Assembly: GCA_903904835.1 (NCBI GenBank)
Contig: CAIVEI010000177.1
Coordinates: forward strand, 1-64,000
Source of the DNA: an uncultured Schlesneria sp.
Lineage (GTDB): Bacteria; Planctomycetota; Planctomycetia; Planctomycetales; Planctomycetaceae
Reading direction: 5' to 3'
Length of the DNA: 64,000 nucleotides
The notes under the pieces were generated by a model. It ran no database searches, had not been told where the DNA came from, and worked only from the letters and a program-made list of their open reading frames with translations. Shown one piece after another: positions 52,996-61,862 of the stretch. The position numbers were made by a program, and so were the translations under genes. Positions within the stretch are counted from its first letter, which is position 1, and every line of letters starts with the position of its first letter.

Positions 52996-53075
52996 TCTTC
53001 AAATCGGTTCCTAAGATTAAGAGCACTGGAGAGCGAAGACGCACCCCAGTGGCACACAGTGGCAGACAACCCGAA

Positions 53076-54164
53076 ATGGCAGATTCTGTGAAAAATCGTT
53101 CGACGGTTCTCATTCCCGTTGTTGCTGCGCTGGTGCTGGCCGGCTTATGGCTTAACATCCTGCCCGGTTCAGGTTCAGATGCCAAGACTCTTATTGTCTA
53201 CTGTGCTCATGATCGCATTTTTGCCGAGCAGGTTTTGGACGACTTTTCGCGAGAGACCGGAATTCGTGTCCAGGTGCGATACGACACCGAAGCGACGAAG
53301 TCACTGGGACTGATCAACCTGATCATCCAGGAACGGTCTCAGCCGCGCTGTGATGTTTTTTGGAATAACGAACTGCTGGGAATGGTCGAGTTGAAGCAAC
53401 AAGGATTACTGGAACGCTATCAAGGTCAAAGCTGGCAGCGAATGCCCGAGCGATACCGTGACGCTGATGGCTACTGGGTTGGGTTTGCCGCACGGATGCG
53501 TGTTTACATCGTGAATACCCACCAAGCCTCTGCAACGGAAGAAGCTTTAGGAACTCTTCTTTCGTTCGAACCTTCTCGGGTCGCGATGGCAAAGCCATTG
53601 TTTGGGACGACTTTAACCCATTACACTGTCCTGTGGCATTTATGGGGCGGCGATCGCCTGAAGGCGTGGCATCGAGACCTTCGTCTACGCGGCATAAGAG
53701 AAGTCGATGGAAATGCCGCTGTCAAAGACGTTGTTGCCCAAGAGACTTGCTACGCCGGAATGACCGATACGGACGATGTTTTCGTGGCGATCGACGATGG
53801 GCTTCCTGTCGAAATGCTTCCCGTTCGTGTTACTAGTGATCTCACTGAAAGACGTCCCTCCGATGCTGCGAATGCTGCCCCTTTTTCTACGATCTGCATT
53901 CCTAACACGGTCGGGATTATTAAAGGAACCAAGCGTCAGGAAGCCGCCCAGCTTCTGGCTGATTACCTGGCTTCTGCCAAAGCTGAGATTGCCCTTGCCA
54001 AGTCCAAGTCACGCCAGATTCCACTCGGTCTCATCGATGCCAAGGAACTACCCGAGGACGTGAAGCAACTTGTGGAATGGTCGCAAGACGGTATCGATCT
54101 TCGCTTACTCTTGTCTGCTCGTCGTGATTGCCTGGAATGGCTGAAAACCGAGTACCTCAAGTGA
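53076..54164 (+). CDS. ABC transporter substrate-binding protein, ferric-type
   Basis: 362 residues from the ATG at 53076; a GTG at 53049 is in frame. An N-terminal anchor (VLIPVVAALVLAGLWLNIL) is followed by TLIVYCAHDRIFAEQVLDDFSRETGIRVQVRYD, typical of family-1 binding proteins of the iron(III)/thiamine/spermidine group, and by QPRCDVFWNNELLGMVELKQQGLLERY. It captures a substrate outside the cytoplasmic membrane; metal or small cation is a guess from family. It starts a run with permease and ATPase genes of matching type. Confidence 0.9.
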   Translation: MADSVKNRSTVLIPVVAALVLAGLWLNILPGSGSDAKTLIVYCAHDRIFAEQVLDDFSRETGIRVQVRYDTEATKSLGLINLIIQERSQPRCDVFWNNELLGMVELKQQGLLERYQGQSWQRMPERYRDADGYWVGFAARMRVYIVNTHQASATEEALGTLLSFEPSRVAMAKPLFGTTLTHYTVLWHLWGGDRLKAWHRDLRLRGIREVDGNAAVKDVVAQETCYAGMTDTDDVFVAIDDGLPVEMLPVRVTSDLTERRPSDAANAAPFSTICIPNTVGIIKGTKRQEAAQLLADYLASAKAEIALAKSKSRQIPLGLIDAKELPEDVKQLVEWSQDGIDLRLLLSARRDCLEWLKTEYLK

Positions 54165-55864: not shown

Positions 55865-57730
55865 GTGTTGTGGACTCTCGACACAGTGTCGCTTTCGGGA
55901 CGTGGTTTGCCGCGATTGGACGGCATATCGCTTAAAATCCCCGAAGGAGTGACTGCGGTGCTTGGGCAGTCTGGCGTTGGAAAGACGTCACTTCTCAATC
56001 TGCTTGTCGGGATCGAACGACCAACCACCGGCAAGATTCACTCTCATACAACGGCATCGAAGGGGCGGTTACCACTTTTCTGGGTACCACCTCAGCATGG
56101 GCTTTGGCCACACCTGACCGTCCAAGAGCATCTCACCACCGTTTCACCTGACAACAAGCTCGAAAAGTCCTGCGACGATCGAGACCTGCTCGCGAAATTC
56201 GATCTGCTGGAACTGGCCGATGCAAAACCGGGATCGCTGTCGCTCGGCGAAAAATCACGGCTGAACGTCGCTCGCTCGCTCGCGTCTCACGCAAACGTTC
56301 TCGTGATGGATGAACCACTTTCACACGTCGATTCATCGCGGTCGGGAAACTATTGGCAAGCGGTCCGCGAACACTGCCAGACACACGGAACTTCGATTGT
56401 CCTGGCAACTCATTCACCCGAAGTAGTTCTGCGCGAGGCAACGAACGTCATCTGTTTGAAGCATGGTCGAGTGGCCTACTCGGGTGATGTGACCACACTT
56501 TACGAATCACCGCCGTCTCGTGAACTCGCAGAATTGCTTGGTCCTTGCAACTGGCTGGCATCTGACGAGGCAAATCAATGGCTAAAACAACCGACTACAG
56601 AATCTAACCCCGATCGATTCGAGACGACAAAATCACCCTGTATTCGCCCGGAATGTCTTGAGGTTCATTCCGACTCGGAAAGTCCGCTGCGTATCGAAGA
56701 TTCACGATTCGCTGGATCGTCTGCGGAAATTGCCGTCTTTGACGAACGTTCAGGCGTAACGCAAAACTTCATTTGCCGCCCACAGGGTACGACTCGTTTC
56801 AAACGAGGCGACCGGGTTATTCTTAGGGTGATTCAGCTTTTGATGATCGTGATCAGCCTGTCAGGGTGTTTTGGCGACGCGTCGCCGGTGCTTCAGGTCA
56901 AACGCGAATCGAACTGGTCGATGCCTCCGGACGGGGCTCGCGTCCCTGCCCCGCGCGGCATGACGGTCTCCCCATCAAACGAGTATCTCGTCCTCGATAA
57001 CGCGGGGCGAGTACTGGTGTATGACCACAATGGTGACTTACAAAAGCAATGGTGGATGCCCGAATATGCGATCGGAAAGGCTGAAGGAATACTCGTGCTG
57101 AAAGATGGACGTATCGCCGTCGCCGACACGCATTACCATCGCATCGTTTTCTTTGATCACGAAGGAAACTTCACGGGGACCTTTGGCCAACGAGGCAGCG
57201 AGCCTGGCGACTTCGTTTATCCGGTCAAAATCGCTCAGGACCCTGAGGAAAACCTCTATATCTGCGAATACGGCCAGAACGATCGTGTGCAGAAATTTCG
57301 ACCTGACGGAACATTCCTTTTGCAGTTCGGCGGTCCCGGGATCGAACCCGGCAAGTTCCAACGACCCAGCGGAATCGTCTGGTACGACCACAAACTTTAT
57401 GTCGTCGATGCCTTTAATAATCGGATTCAGGTTTTTTCCGATGACGGAAAGCTGATTGCAATTCTCGGAGAGTCAGACAGAATAGCTGAAGTTCACTATC
57501 CATACGACATCACCGTCGATCAGAATGGGGACCTGTTCGCGGTCGAATACGGCGCAGGACGGGTTTCCAAGTTCAGTCGATCAGGCCGATTGCTGGGCCG
57601 GTACGGTTCATCCGGATCAGGCCAGACAGCGGCTCAGTTCTCGACTCCCTGGGGGCTGACCATCGATCGACGCGGGCGGTTATACGTGTGCGATACAGGC
57701 AATAGACGGATCGTGGAGCTGGAGCTTTGA
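55865..57730 (+). CDS. ABC ATPase fused in frame to a lipobox and NHL propeller
   Basis: 621 residues from a GTG with AGGA seven bases before it; the frame is open to a TTG at 55655 but that extension is built from repeats. The ATPase: Walker A GQSGVGKTS (34-42), signature LSLGEKSRL near 138 (LSGGQ is usual), Walker B NVLVMDEPLSHVD and the H-loop ATHSPE. A TOBE-like region ends GDRVILRV. Without a stop the frame goes on through VIQLLMIVISLSGC, a lipobox-like stretch near residues 322-335, to an NHL-type six-bladed propeller of about 285 residues (GEPDFVYPVKIAQD... style blades). Known NHL lipoproteins stand alone. Either a true fusion or two coupled genes with an internal GTG start at 56828. 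The ATPase powers the adjacent permease. Confidence 0.85.
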   Translation: MLWTLDTVSLSGRGLPRLDGISLKIPEGVTAVLGQSGVGKTSLLNLLVGIERPTTGKIHSHTTASKGRLPLFWVPPQHGLWPHLTVQEHLTTVSPDNKLEKSCDDRDLLAKFDLLELADAKPGSLSLGEKSRLNVARSLASHANVLVMDEPLSHVDSSRSGNYWQAVREHCQTHGTSIVLATHSPEVVLREATNVICLKHGRVAYSGDVTTLYESPPSRELAELLGPCNWLASDEANQWLKQPTTESNPDRFETTKSPCIRPECLEVHSDSESPLRIEDSRFAGSSAEIAVFDERSGVTQNFICRPQGTTRFKRGDRVILRVIQLLMIVISLSGCFGDASPVLQVKRESNWSMPPDGARVPAPRGMTVSPSNEYLVLDNAGRVLVYDHNGDLQKQWWMPEYAIGKAEGILVLKDGRIAVADTHYHRIVFFDHEGNFTGTFGQRGSEPGDFVYPVKIAQDPEENLYICEYGQNDRVQKFRPDGTFLLQFGGPGIEPGKFQRPSGIVWYDHKLYVVDAFNNRIQVFSDDGKLIAILGESDRIAEVHYPYDITVDQNGDLFAVEYGAGRVSKFSRSGRLLGRYGSSGSGQTAAQFSTPWGLTIDRRGRLYVCDTGNRRIVELEL

Positions 57731-57731
57731 G

Positions 57732-60700
57732 ATGTTCAAACAACTGAGTCGCTTCGTCGCGAGCTTTTTTCCGCGACCTCGACGCCCCTTCCGCTGGCAG
57801 GATACTTTGCCATTGGCCCTGTTCATGGTCCTGTTTTGCGGGATCTGCGCCTGGCTGGAACTCGGTCATTACCTGATGTTTGCCCGCCCCTATATGCTCG
57901 GTCTGATTCTCCTTGCCCCGTGGGTCTGGTGGATGTATGTCGCAGGATACGCCGGTCTGCCCAAGGGACGAGGGACTCTTTCGCTATTGATGAGGCTATG
58001 CCTGTTAGGCCTGCTCGTCATGGTCCTGGCCGAACCTCGCTCTGTTCGGTCACGCGATGTCATGTCGGTTGTTTTCGCGCTGGACGTCAGCGATTCGATC
58101 TACAGCCCTGATGATGCTCTGAAATACATCGTCCAAACAGTGCAGAACCAAAGGCCGAAAGGAAAGTCCGATCAGGCAGGGCTGATTATCTTCGGCAAAA
58201 CACCCGCTTGCGAGCTTTCCCCCAGCATGAGCTTCCCATTTGAAGCGTTTAACTCGCAAGTCGATCGCGGGGCAACAAACATCGAACAAACGTTGTCGTA
58301 TGCCGGCGCGCTCTTGCCCGAGGACAATCAGGGCAAAGTCGTCTTAATCAGTGACGGTGTTCAGACCGAAGGAAATCTGTCACGCATCCTGGACGATCTG
58401 AAAGGACGTGGCGTCGTTGTTGACGTACTCCCCATCGATTACTCGTACAGTAACGAAGTCTGGCTGGAACGCCTTGACCTGCCCCAGGCGGTCAAACTCG
58501 GCGAATCATACGAAGCGGGAATGCTTGTCAAATCTCTGAATGATGGAAAAGGAAAACTCGTCCTGCGCGAAAACGGAAACGTGATCGCCGAGCAGGATGT
58601 CGAATATAAGGCCGGTACAAACCGATATACCGTTCCAATCACGCTTCGAACGGCAGGTTATTACGAGTACACCGCCAGTATCGAAGTCCCCAAGGCACAA
58701 GACAGCCTGGCTCAAAACAACACCGTCTTGAATTACATCTTTGTCGAAGGAGAAGGAAAGGTTCTGCTGGTCACCGATGGATCGGGTGACAAGCGAGACT
58801 GGGAACGGCTCGAGCGAGCCATCCGTGACGGTGAACGAGCGGTCGAGCGAATCGATGGGTCAGACATGCCGCGCGATGCGACGTCGCTGATGCCCTATGA
58901 CTGCATCATCTTCGCCAATGTTCCGCACGATGAGTTCGATGTTCAGCAACTGCAGGCGGTTCGAGATGCGGTCTACAACCTGGGTGCCGGGTTCCTGATG
59001 GTCGGGGGATCAAACAGTTTTGGCCCCGGCGGATATCACCGAACCGTGATCGAAGACATTCTTCCTGTCTCGATGGATGTGTCCCAGAAAAAAGTACTGC
59101 CGAAAGGTGCACTCGCCATCATTCTGCACTCGTGCGAATTCCCCGAAGGAAACACCTGGGGCAAGCGAATCACGAAACAGGCTATCAAGGTGCTGGGTGC
59201 CCAGGATGAAGTCGGCGTGTTGGCCTACACGGAAGTCGGTGAAAAATGGTTGTTCGAACTGACCCCTGCCGGTAATTACGAGCAGCTTGTACCGATCATC
59301 AACGGAGCCAGCATCGGTGATATGCCCAGCTTCCAAAATACGATGCAATTGGGTTTGAAGGGGCTGATGAAAAGTGATGCGGCAACGCGGCACATGATCA
59401 TTCTCTCGGACGGTGACCCACAGCCACCAACCCCGGCACTGATCGCCCAATTCATTGATGCCAAAATCAGTGTGTCGATGGTGGCCATTTTTCCACATGG
59501 GGGGATGGAAATCTCAAAAATGCAGCTCGTCGCGGAAACGACCGGAGGGCGGTACTACTATCCTGACGATCCGAATCAGCTTCCGGCAATCTTTATTAAA
59601 GAATCCAAAACACTCAAACGCAGTATGCTGCAGAACAAGGTGTTTACACCCGAAGTCGCCTTTCCCTCTCCCATCTTGAAGGGGATCGAAGGGATGCCCG
59701 AACTCAAGGGTTATGTCATCACGACCGCCAAGGGACACCCGGCGATGACCATCCTGACCGCACCACCCGATGCGGAAGATGCCGACTCACAAGATCCCGT
59801 CCTGTCTGTCTGGCAACACGGACTCGGCAAAACGGCCGCGTTCACGTCTGACTTCAGTACGAATTGGGGCGAGCACTGGCAGAAGTGGGATCGCTTTCAA
59901 CCTTTCGTGAAACAACTGCTGACCGATATCAGCCGAGTCAAAAAAGACGGCCATTTGCGAATGTCGACTCACACTTCAGGTGGCGATGCCGTAATCGTCG
60001 TGGAAGATTTCCATCCGGAAGAAGGCTTTCTGGAACTGAACGCGAAACTTGCTGGCCCGAACCAGAAGTCGGAAAACGTACAATTGAAACAAGTGGCCCC
60101 TCGTCGATATCAGGCAACCGTTCCTTTATGGGGTCACGGTCGGTATCACGCCATTGCGCAAGGTATCGGCGGTGAACGAAAAGACCTGGCGTTCGGCGGG
60201 TTCATCGTCCCCTATTCGCCCGAATATTTACGGTTCCGCTCAAATCGCCAGACACTACAGGACGTTGCCGACCGGACCAGCGGTCGAGTCTTATCCGGTG
60301 ATCCCGAGAAAGACGATATCTACCGACATGGTCGTGCACCGAAACGAAGTTCGAAACCGATCTTCGACTGGCTCCTGATTGCACTGGCGATTCTGGTGCC
60401 ACTCGACGTGGCATTGCGTCGTATTCAAATCGATTTCGCTTCGATCAAGTCTGCTTTGGGATTTGGCCCGCGCACAGCAGCGACCGCAACGATGGGAGCC
60501 TTGCTGCATGCCAAGCAAACGGCGAGTGCTGCCATCAAGTCTCGAAGAGAAGAACGTCCACTTCCCTCTCAAACACCAGGTTCAATGCCAGTCCGATCGG
60601 CATCCAAATCCGCAACGTCATCGACAGTGGTCCGACAACAACCTGCCGAACCGCCACCACCGTCGCCAAGCTCTGCGACATCCACGACCGAGCGATTGCT

Positions 60701-60734
60701 GGCATTGAAACGAAAACGAGACGAAGACAAGTAA
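57732..60734 (+). CDS. Large VWA membrane protein, glutamine amidotransferase-like
   Basis: 1000 residues. Two to three N-terminal transmembrane helices (about 26-45, 55-72, 84-100). A von Willebrand factor A domain with MIDAS D118-V-S-D-S follows, then LSDGVQTEG. The middle (VLLVTDGSGDKRD ... CIIFANVPHDEF ... GFLMVGGSNSFGPGGYHRTVIEDILPVSM) is like glutamine amidotransferase-type domains in similar VWA proteins, without a clear catalytic Cys. A second VWA-like segment has HMIILSDGDPQPP. One helix near 880-900 and a Pro/Ser-rich cytoplasmic tail end it. Its ATG follows the ATPase-NHL stop by one base, so translation is coupled; the MoxR gene follows. Confidence 0.9.
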   Translation: MFKQLSRFVASFFPRPRRPFRWQDTLPLALFMVLFCGICAWLELGHYLMFARPYMLGLILLAPWVWWMYVAGYAGLPKGRGTLSLLMRLCLLGLLVMVLAEPRSVRSRDVMSVVFALDVSDSIYSPDDALKYIVQTVQNQRPKGKSDQAGLIIFGKTPACELSPSMSFPFEAFNSQVDRGATNIEQTLSYAGALLPEDNQGKVVLISDGVQTEGNLSRILDDLKGRGVVVDVLPIDYSYSNEVWLERLDLPQAVKLGESYEAGMLVKSLNDGKGKLVLRENGNVIAEQDVEYKAGTNRYTVPITLRTAGYYEYTASIEVPKAQDSLAQNNTVLNYIFVEGEGKVLLVTDGSGDKRDWERLERAIRDGERAVERIDGSDMPRDATSLMPYDCIIFANVPHDEFDVQQLQAVRDAVYNLGAGFLMVGGSNSFGPGGYHRTVIEDILPVSMDVSQKKVLPKGALAIILHSCEFPEGNTWGKRITKQAIKVLGAQDEVGVLAYTEVGEKWLFELTPAGNYEQLVPIINGASIGDMPSFQNTMQLGLKGLMKSDAATRHMIILSDGDPQPPTPALIAQFIDAKISVSMVAIFPHGGMEISKMQLVAETTGGRYYYPDDPNQLPAIFIKESKTLKRSMLQNKVFTPEVAFPSPILKGIEGMPELKGYVITTAKGHPAMTILTAPPDAEDADSQDPVLSVWQHGLGKTAAFTSDFSTNWGEHWQKWDRFQPFVKQLLTDISRVKKDGHLRMSTHTSGGDAVIVVEDFHPEEGFLELNAKLAGPNQKSENVQLKQVAPRRYQATVPLWGHGRYHAIAQGIGGERKDLAFGGFIVPYSPEYLRFRSNRQTLQDVADRTSGRVLSGDPEKDDIYRHGRAPKRSSKPIFDWLLIALAILVPLDVALRRIQIDFASIKSALGFGPRTAATATMGALLHAKQTASAAIKSRREERPLPSQTPGSMPVRSASKSATSSTVVRQQPAEPPPPSPSSATSTTERLLALKRKRDEDK

Positions 60735-60848: not shown

Positions 60849-61862
60849 ATGAGTGCAGCAGAAGTCATCGACCTGGGTTCCCTGGAAAGGGAAGCGGAAC
60901 ACTTCAAGTCTCAATTCGCCGAAGCTCGCGCAGCCATCGGGAAAGTGATCGTCGGTCAGCAACGCACCGTCGAAGCGGCCTTAACCGCTATCATGTGCGG
61001 TGGTAACGTGCTGCTGGAAGGTGTCCCAGGCCTCGGTAAAACGGAACTGGTGAAAGCCCTTTCACGGGTTCTCGACCTCGAATTTCGCCGAATTCAGTTC
61101 ACCCCCGACCTGATGCCTGCAGATATCGTCGGTACAAACGTGATGGCGAGCGATGAGAACGGCCAGTACCGGTTTGAATTCCGCAAGGGGCCCATCTTCA
61201 CCCAGTTACTGCTGGCAGACGAAATCAACCGAGCCTCACCGAAGACTCAGTCGGCCTTGCTGGAAACAATGCAGGAACACTCGGTCACCACCGGCGGAAA
61301 TATCTTTCAGTTGAAAGAGCCATTTTTCGTTCTGGCAACCCAGAACCCGATTGAGCAGGAAGGGACGTATCCGCTCCCCGAAGCACAACTCGACCGCTTC
61401 ATGTTCAAGGTCGTCGTTCCATTCCTGAATCGGGATGAACTCAACGAAGTCGTCAGCCGCACAATCCTCAAAACGCCTATCGAAATTCCCAAACTGCTTG
61501 ATTCCGATCGGATCATGTCGCTGCGAAAGATTCTTGAAAAAGTCGTTGTGACCGACGCCTTACGCGACTATGCCGTTCGGCTGGTGCTGGCGACCCACCC
61601 GATCAGCGACTTCGCGACACCGCGAGTCAAACAATACATTAAGTGGGGAGCCAGCCCTCGCGCGGCACAGGCTTTGATCCGGGCAGCCCGAGTGCGAGCA
61701 CTGGCGGAAGGCCGAGTCCACGTCGCCTTCGAAGACATTCGACATTTTGCCTGTGAAGTCCTCGGCCACCGAATGCTACTGAACTATGACGGCCAGGCCG
61801 AAAACCTCGACGTGAATGAGATTGTCCTGGAATGCGTGAAATCATTGTCCGAAACGATGTGA
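60849..61862 (+). CDS. MoxR-family AAA ATPase
   Basis: 337 residues. Walker A GVPGLGKT (58-65), Walker B with sensor region LLLADEINRA (about 120-129), then SPKTQSALLETMQE and ATQNPIEQEGTYPLPEAQLDRF (sensor 1 and arginine-finger segment), and GASPRAAQALIRAARVRALAEGR (lid). MoxR proteins are chaperone-like ATPases that act with VWA proteins in maturing enzymes, often inserting metal or cofactor. Neighbours on both sides are VWA or DUF58 proteins, the standard partners. No signal peptide; cytoplasmic. Confidence 0.97.
   Translation: MSAAEVIDLGSLEREAEHFKSQFAEARAAIGKVIVGQQRTVEAALTAIMCGGNVLLEGVPGLGKTELVKALSRVLDLEFRRIQFTPDLMPADIVGTNVMASDENGQYRFEFRKGPIFTQLLLADEINRASPKTQSALLETMQEHSVTTGGNIFQLKEPFFVLATQNPIEQEGTYPLPEAQLDRFMFKVVVPFLNRDELNEVVSRTILKTPIEIPKLLDSDRIMSLRKILEKVVVTDALRDYAVRLVLATHPISDFATPRVKQYIKWGASPRAAQALIRAARVRALAEGRVHVAFEDIRHFACEVLGHRMLLNYDGQAENLDVNEIVLECVKSLSETM

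Follow-up and report, generated by a model that had tools for sequence, protein, structure and literature searches.

The locus analysed here raises the question of how a single reading frame, in which a transporter ATPase is followed by a lipobox and an NHL propeller, could serve both sides of a membrane. The earlier note had read one unbroken frame here, with an ABC ATPase, a TOBE-like end, the letters LSGC and a propeller, and this reading is borne out by the Pfam domains found in one chain and by 77 loci of the same build. In the explanation that fits best, and which we hold to be the probable one, the gene encodes a polyprotein of a ferric-iron-type importer that would be cut at an internal lipoprotein signal. 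Many Planctomycetes probably make, from one precursor, two proteins destined for opposite sides of the membrane. The coordinates below refer to the window, that is, the whole stretch of 64,000 nucleotides that was analysed.

Table 1. Features of the fused gene and its neighbours in the window.
Feature	Coordinates	Strand	Basis or remark
Solute-binding protein, ferric-iron-binding (FbpA-like) group	53049..54164	+	PF13531; top PDB hit by sequence is a ferric iron-binding protein (E 6e-13)
Probable permease, 488 aa	54192..55658	+	tblastn match to permease part of L110, L113, L116
Fused gene: ABC ATPase, internal lipoprotein-type signal, NHL propeller	55865..57730	+	621 aa plus stop
ABC nucleotide-binding domain, residues 1-238	55865..56578	+	PF00005 at 18-152, motifs, FbpC/CysA fold matches
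TOBE-like C-terminal domain, about residues 260-322	56642..56830	+	Model strands 265-322
In-frame GTG, codon 322, earlier proposed as internal start	56828..56830	+	Not conserved
Uncharged h-region V322-G334, 13 residues, R321 just before	56828..56866	+
Lipobox LSG/C; C335 (56867-56869) is the predicted lipidation and cleavage point	56858..56869	+
NHL beta-propeller, about residues 356-621	56930..57727	+	PF01436; 6d69 matched with TM-score 0.85 (by target length)
VWA and GATase1_like membrane protein	57732..60734	+	PF13519, PF07090
MoxR-type AAA ATPase	60849..61862	+	Our naming; weak AAA matches only in NCBIfam

The frame around the fused gene is open from TTG 55655 to the stop codon at 57728-57730. 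The codon at the position of GTG 55865 is GTG in the window and in all seven relatives (L001, L009-L015), and L011 has a stop six codons ahead of that position with no alternative start in between; judged from these alignments, GTG 55865 is the likely start. Pfam places both ABC_tran (residues 18-152, E 9e-23) and NHL repeats (E 1e-22) on the single chain and reports no TOBE model for it; the domain is called TOBE-like from modelled strands at 265-322 and from fold matches to the FbpC, CysA and MalK ATPases. In the 19-row alignment A1 the ATPase motifs are invariant at Walker A (G34, S36, G37, G39 and K40), at the signature (S126, G128 and E129; LSLGE in the window), at Walker B (D149, E150 and P151) and at H183, and the Walker A, signature, Walker B and H-loop elements of the FbpC/CysA/MalK importer group are all present. 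The border of the ABC domain at residue 238 is our reading of the alignment and the model.

The structure model of the fused chain, built from 28 sequences, has a mean pLDDT of 87 and a pTM of 0.51, with low confidence at residues 329-338. In this model the last TOBE-like strand (317-322, RVILRV), which overlaps the basic n-region of the signal, continues into the hydrophobic stretch. Foldseek matches the propeller half to NHL domains (6d69) and the ATPase half to the ferric importer ATPase 9j4r_B (TM-score 0.74 by target length). The C-terminal half shows both the repeats and the propeller fold of an NHL propeller, as found by Pfam, the model and Foldseek.

The sequence group of the binding protein would make it one of the ferric-iron type, and the same protein is weakly like 2-aminoethylphosphonate binding proteins, below cut-off. 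Neither Pfam nor NCBIfam returned a match for the probable permease; its homologues in L113 and L116 approach or match BPD_transp_1. The VWA/GATase1_like gene begins one base past the stop of the fused gene. A hand count of neighbours among 29 fused loci gives the permease in 26, the VWA gene in 26, the binding protein in 23 and MoxR in 16, some at least of the absences being due to contig ends and flank limits. The VWA gene adjoins the propeller even where the ATPase is absent, for example in L032 (by frames), L070-L074 and L077.

The fused state is widespread. In a search of 170 genomes of the family at a match cut-off of 1e-40, 128 had a match and 72 had both halves in a single uninterrupted match; by hand count, 17 of these 72 are single-contig assemblies. 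Within the window's own genus (g1) the fusion occurs in 14 of 15 genomes, G009 being the one without a match, and the nearest named loci are those of uncultured Schlesneria (L038-L040, 85-89% identity). Among cultured relatives, Thalassoglobus neptunius (L056) and strains of Gimesia or Schlesneria have the fused gene. The lost stop between two genes that the earlier note had envisaged is at odds with this distribution. The family and named loci together comprise 139 distinct loci, of which 77 are fused, 36 split and 26 propeller only, a fused-to-split ratio that is not a prevalence because the fused protein served as the query that found them. The split class includes L026 and L069, both with broken frames, and L036, which has no NHL on its contig, is excluded from the counts. 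L026 (genome G034, a fragmented one) carries a TAA at about codon 131 of the ATPase part in a gene otherwise fused. In G142 the contig begins inside the ATPase, and in G185 the halves lie in separate frames. Five of the 77 fused loci were found beyond the family search; three of these are titled Verrucomicrobia or Lentisphaerae (L061, L067, L065), and for them gene transfer, wide ancestry or misbinning are possible. Four further ABC fusions occur in other families of the phylum (L224, L227, L228, L229).

The junction carries the signature of a lipoprotein signal throughout. A lipobox-type cysteine is present in all 77 distinct fused loci, as counted by a script that takes the best G, S or A followed by C behind the hydrophobic stretch and with the sequences printed too; the residue before it is G in 73, S in 3 and A in 1. 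The uncharged stretch measures 12-18 residues (median 13), and the last charged residue ahead of it is R in 60 loci and K in 17, a conservation that may partly reflect the TOBE strand. Position -3 of the lipobox is variable, with Q or N in 5 of 77 by our reading, and some fused loci have boxes such as CGG or SLG that are atypical against the textbook lipobox. A basic residue, a short h-region, a lipobox and an invariant cysteine are found together in 77 of 77 loci. The signal lies after about 320 residues of open frame and not at the protein N-terminus, so it would work like a lipoprotein signal rather than being a standard one. A stretch of 12-18 uncharged residues is short for a stable membrane span, and its length fits a lipoprotein h-region.

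The split loci provide the natural comparison. Their separate ATPases stop shortly past the TOBE strand and have no hydrophobic stretch: the highest hydropathy over 13 residues reaches 2.18 or more at every fused junction, whereas the final 30 residues of the separate ATPases do not exceed 1.88 (median 0.45), measured in 30 of the 36 split loci with six left out. The separate NHL proteins of 30 split loci start with a lipoprotein-type signal (median 14.5 uncharged residues; last charged residue R in 25, K in 2 and E in 3). Selection acts on the protein letters of the junction itself, where residues 315-335 give a dS of 1.03, a dN of 0.066 and a dN/dS of 0.065 over seven close pairs, and the h-region alone a dS of 0.62 and a dN/dS of 0.13. 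The window's genome has one match over cut-off for each of LspA and Lgt.

A second, independent fusion joins the same kind of propeller to a different subunit. In 7 of the 26 propeller-only loci (L105, L107, L110, L112, L113, L115, L116) the propeller shares one frame with the permease encoded in its own operon. Among 392 genomes searched across the phylum, a single match spanning permease and propeller turned up in nine additional genomes, giving 16 permease fusion loci (the seven with L193-L200 and L203). Each of the 16 junctions combines a basic residue with 12-20 uncharged residues and a cysteine of lipobox type, and the junction G and C are invariant in the seven that were aligned. BPD_transp_1 exceeds its cut-off in L116 but not in L113, and L107 has no match to it. 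Two cases are not counted as fusions: L236 (G427) has a long open frame ahead of the propeller in which no partner was recognised, and L192/L241 (G462) has its permease part in a different frame. Two different fusions, each with the cytoplasmic end of a transporter subunit as n-region, suggest selection for making the lipoprotein both with and at the importer.

Two trees bear on the order of events; both are midpoint rooted, with modest deep support and long branches flagged. In the tree of ATPase plus propeller (111 loci) the fused or split label changes 6 times, 2 of them forced by starred branches; in the propeller-only tree (176 rows) the ABC fusions make up 82 rows with 13 changes, 6 of them forced. 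The permease fusions form one group in the propeller tree (support 94, not starred), apart from the ABC fusions. L026, with its stop inside the ATPase, and L069, with its frames apart, are left out of both trees; the propeller tree also omits, by our choice, L192, L231-L234 and L236-L241, which are duplicates, lack a clear partner or have the permease in a different frame. L167 is labelled fused in the propeller tree because its contig starts inside the ATPase, and the split labels of L206, L217, L219, L220, L222 and L223 are our assignment. The deep branches of the ABC side are mostly fused, for which reason a split ancestral state was set aside; these trees favour, without proving, a fusion of old date that was later split in some lineages.

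In 17 of the 36 split loci the ATPase stop and the start of the NHL frame overlap by four bases, so that split pairs are often coupled (NTGA was found in 24 of the 30 split loci measured, an uninformative figure). Since 36 related loci are classed as two genes, one chain is not required. The earlier note had named two genes parted by a stop at this place in close relatives as a finding that would count against its reading; the close relatives are fused, and two genes occur in more distant ones. As the two-gene relatives are favoured to be later splits, the window does not display the step of gene fusion in progress that had been proposed for it.

These observations can be assembled into a sequence of events. 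One ribosome run would make the ATPase first and then the NHL protein; the ATPase would fold and remain in the cytoplasm. R321 and the uncharged V322-G334 would then act as an internal lipoprotein signal, the chain being inserted N-in/C-out and the propeller crossing through Sec. Lgt would put diacylglycerol on C335, after which LspA would cut between G334 and C335. The predicted products, of about 36 and 32 kDa, are an ATPase of 334 residues that keeps a short hydrophobic tail at the membrane and an NHL lipoprotein of 287 residues, formed 1:1 with the ATPase and placed next to the transporter. LspA normally cuts following lipidation, so two proteins should result, and use in export, lipidation and cleavage best accounts for a lipobox that sits at the border and has been retained along with the frame. 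With somewhat less assurance, though still leaning in favour, we propose a class of polyproteins with internal lipoprotein signals, in which the end of a transporter subunit serves as n-region and LspA both frees the inside subunit and matures the outside one. This class would have arisen at least twice, behind an ATPase and behind a permease; repeated fusion of one and the same NHL lipoprotein would suggest that the propeller is a stoichiometric partner at the outer face of the importer.

The main rival is a chain that is never cut, with the ATPase kept inside, the propeller kept outside and the hydrophobic stretch joining them. A conserved frame is equally expected of such a tether, the sequence allows its topology, and it has a precedent in MacB-type transporters, whose ATPase is joined to outside domains via membrane helices. 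We nevertheless consider it unlikely, given that the stretch has just 12-18 uncharged residues, that a cysteine after G, S or A at every one of the 77 junctions would be needless for a plain tether, and that split-gene species have the same sort of lipoprotein signal. Of the topology proposed in the earlier note, the single membrane crossing is retained, as the lipobox implies it, and the uncleaved tether gives way to cleavage by lipoprotein signal peptidase, a step absent from that note and here the most likely one.

Less likely again is internal initiation, by which the ATPase would keep a hydrophobic tail and a separate in-frame start would make the NHL lipoprotein. The candidate put forward earlier, GTG 56828, is rejected: the codon is shared by the window, L009 and L013 and is replaced by ATC in L010 and L015, GTC in L011 and L012 and CTG in L014, and a start there would yield MIQLLMIVISLSGC, without positive charge. 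More generally, an in-frame ATG, GTG or TTG between -36 and -14 with at least one K or R after it occurs in 55 of the 77 ABC fusions, which makes internal initiation feasible in many of them. This count is at chance level, since synonymous-codon resampling expects 54.7 (s.d. 3.4) and reaches or exceeds 55 in 271 of 500 draws, and 22 fusions, the window among them, have no usable start. Single positions show small excesses, such as 18 observed versus 12.9 expected at -15. Synonymous divergence over the seven close pairs is similar in the h-region (dS as above), the ATPase (0.66) and the propeller (0.55), and over all 91 pairs pS is slightly lower in the h-region (0.645 versus 0.71). The start count and this pattern indicate that protein letters are kept, with no clear mark of a hidden start. 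In the permease fusions usable starts are so common (15 of 16, with 15.2 expected) that this set says little on initiation. Individual species may use an internal start.

It is improbable that the whole chain stays in the cytoplasm with the hydrophobic stretch as a linker. The model shows no rigid arrangement of the halves, as the pTM indicates and as a linker would allow, but the separate relatives of the propeller start with lipoprotein-type signals and the permease fusions put it behind a membrane protein. Separate genes do occur in other Planctomycetes, often with the four-base start/stop overlap, but an assembly or sequencing error or a recent stop loss confined to this genome is ruled out, to within a negligible chance, by 77 loci in the same fused state, 17 single-contig genomes among them.

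If cleavage of the polyprotein at its lipoprotein signal is correct, LspA has substrates with a whole folded enzyme ahead of the signal, so searches limited to the N-terminus would miss such lipoproteins, and gene finders would mislabel the chains as cytoplasmic ATPases. The gene would also allow the ability of LspA to split a polyprotein to be tested directly. The planctomycete NHL/VWA/MoxR gene set is tied physically to an importer by the two kinds of fusion. No paper on such a fusion was found by title or abstract in open-access PMC text, which is weak evidence of novelty, and a search for bacterial polyproteins returned unrelated papers only, one for fbcH none. An article with a passage on Lgt, Lnt and Sec in Planctopirus limnophila yielded no hits for NHL, ABC transporter, von Willebrand or MoxR (PMC10632474).

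Among known systems, FbpABC-type ferric importers have the same order of binding protein, permease and ATPase, but here the ATPase or the permease is fused to an NHL lipoprotein and the operon goes on with the VWA and MoxR genes. The propeller shares its fold and repeats with six-bladed NHL propellers (PF01436; the NHL domains of Thin and TRIM71 by fold), from which it differs in that it is bacterial, has a lipobox ahead of it and is joined to a subunit of a transporter. MacB-type ABC proteins likewise have an ATPase inside and another domain outside on one chain; the present chain, however, lacks a four-helix membrane part and has a single short hydrophobic stretch with a lipobox at its end. 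Polyproteins with an internal signal have a known example in cytochrome bc1; we know of none of lipoprotein type with an ATPase in front. In Bradyrhizobium, fbcH encodes a cytochrome b/c1 precursor that is cut by signal peptidase, so that, as proposed here, two proteins per chain are parted at an internal signal peptide. The planctomycete chain differs in that its signal is of LspA type, its first product would be a soluble-type ATPase and its cleavage is predicted from the junction.
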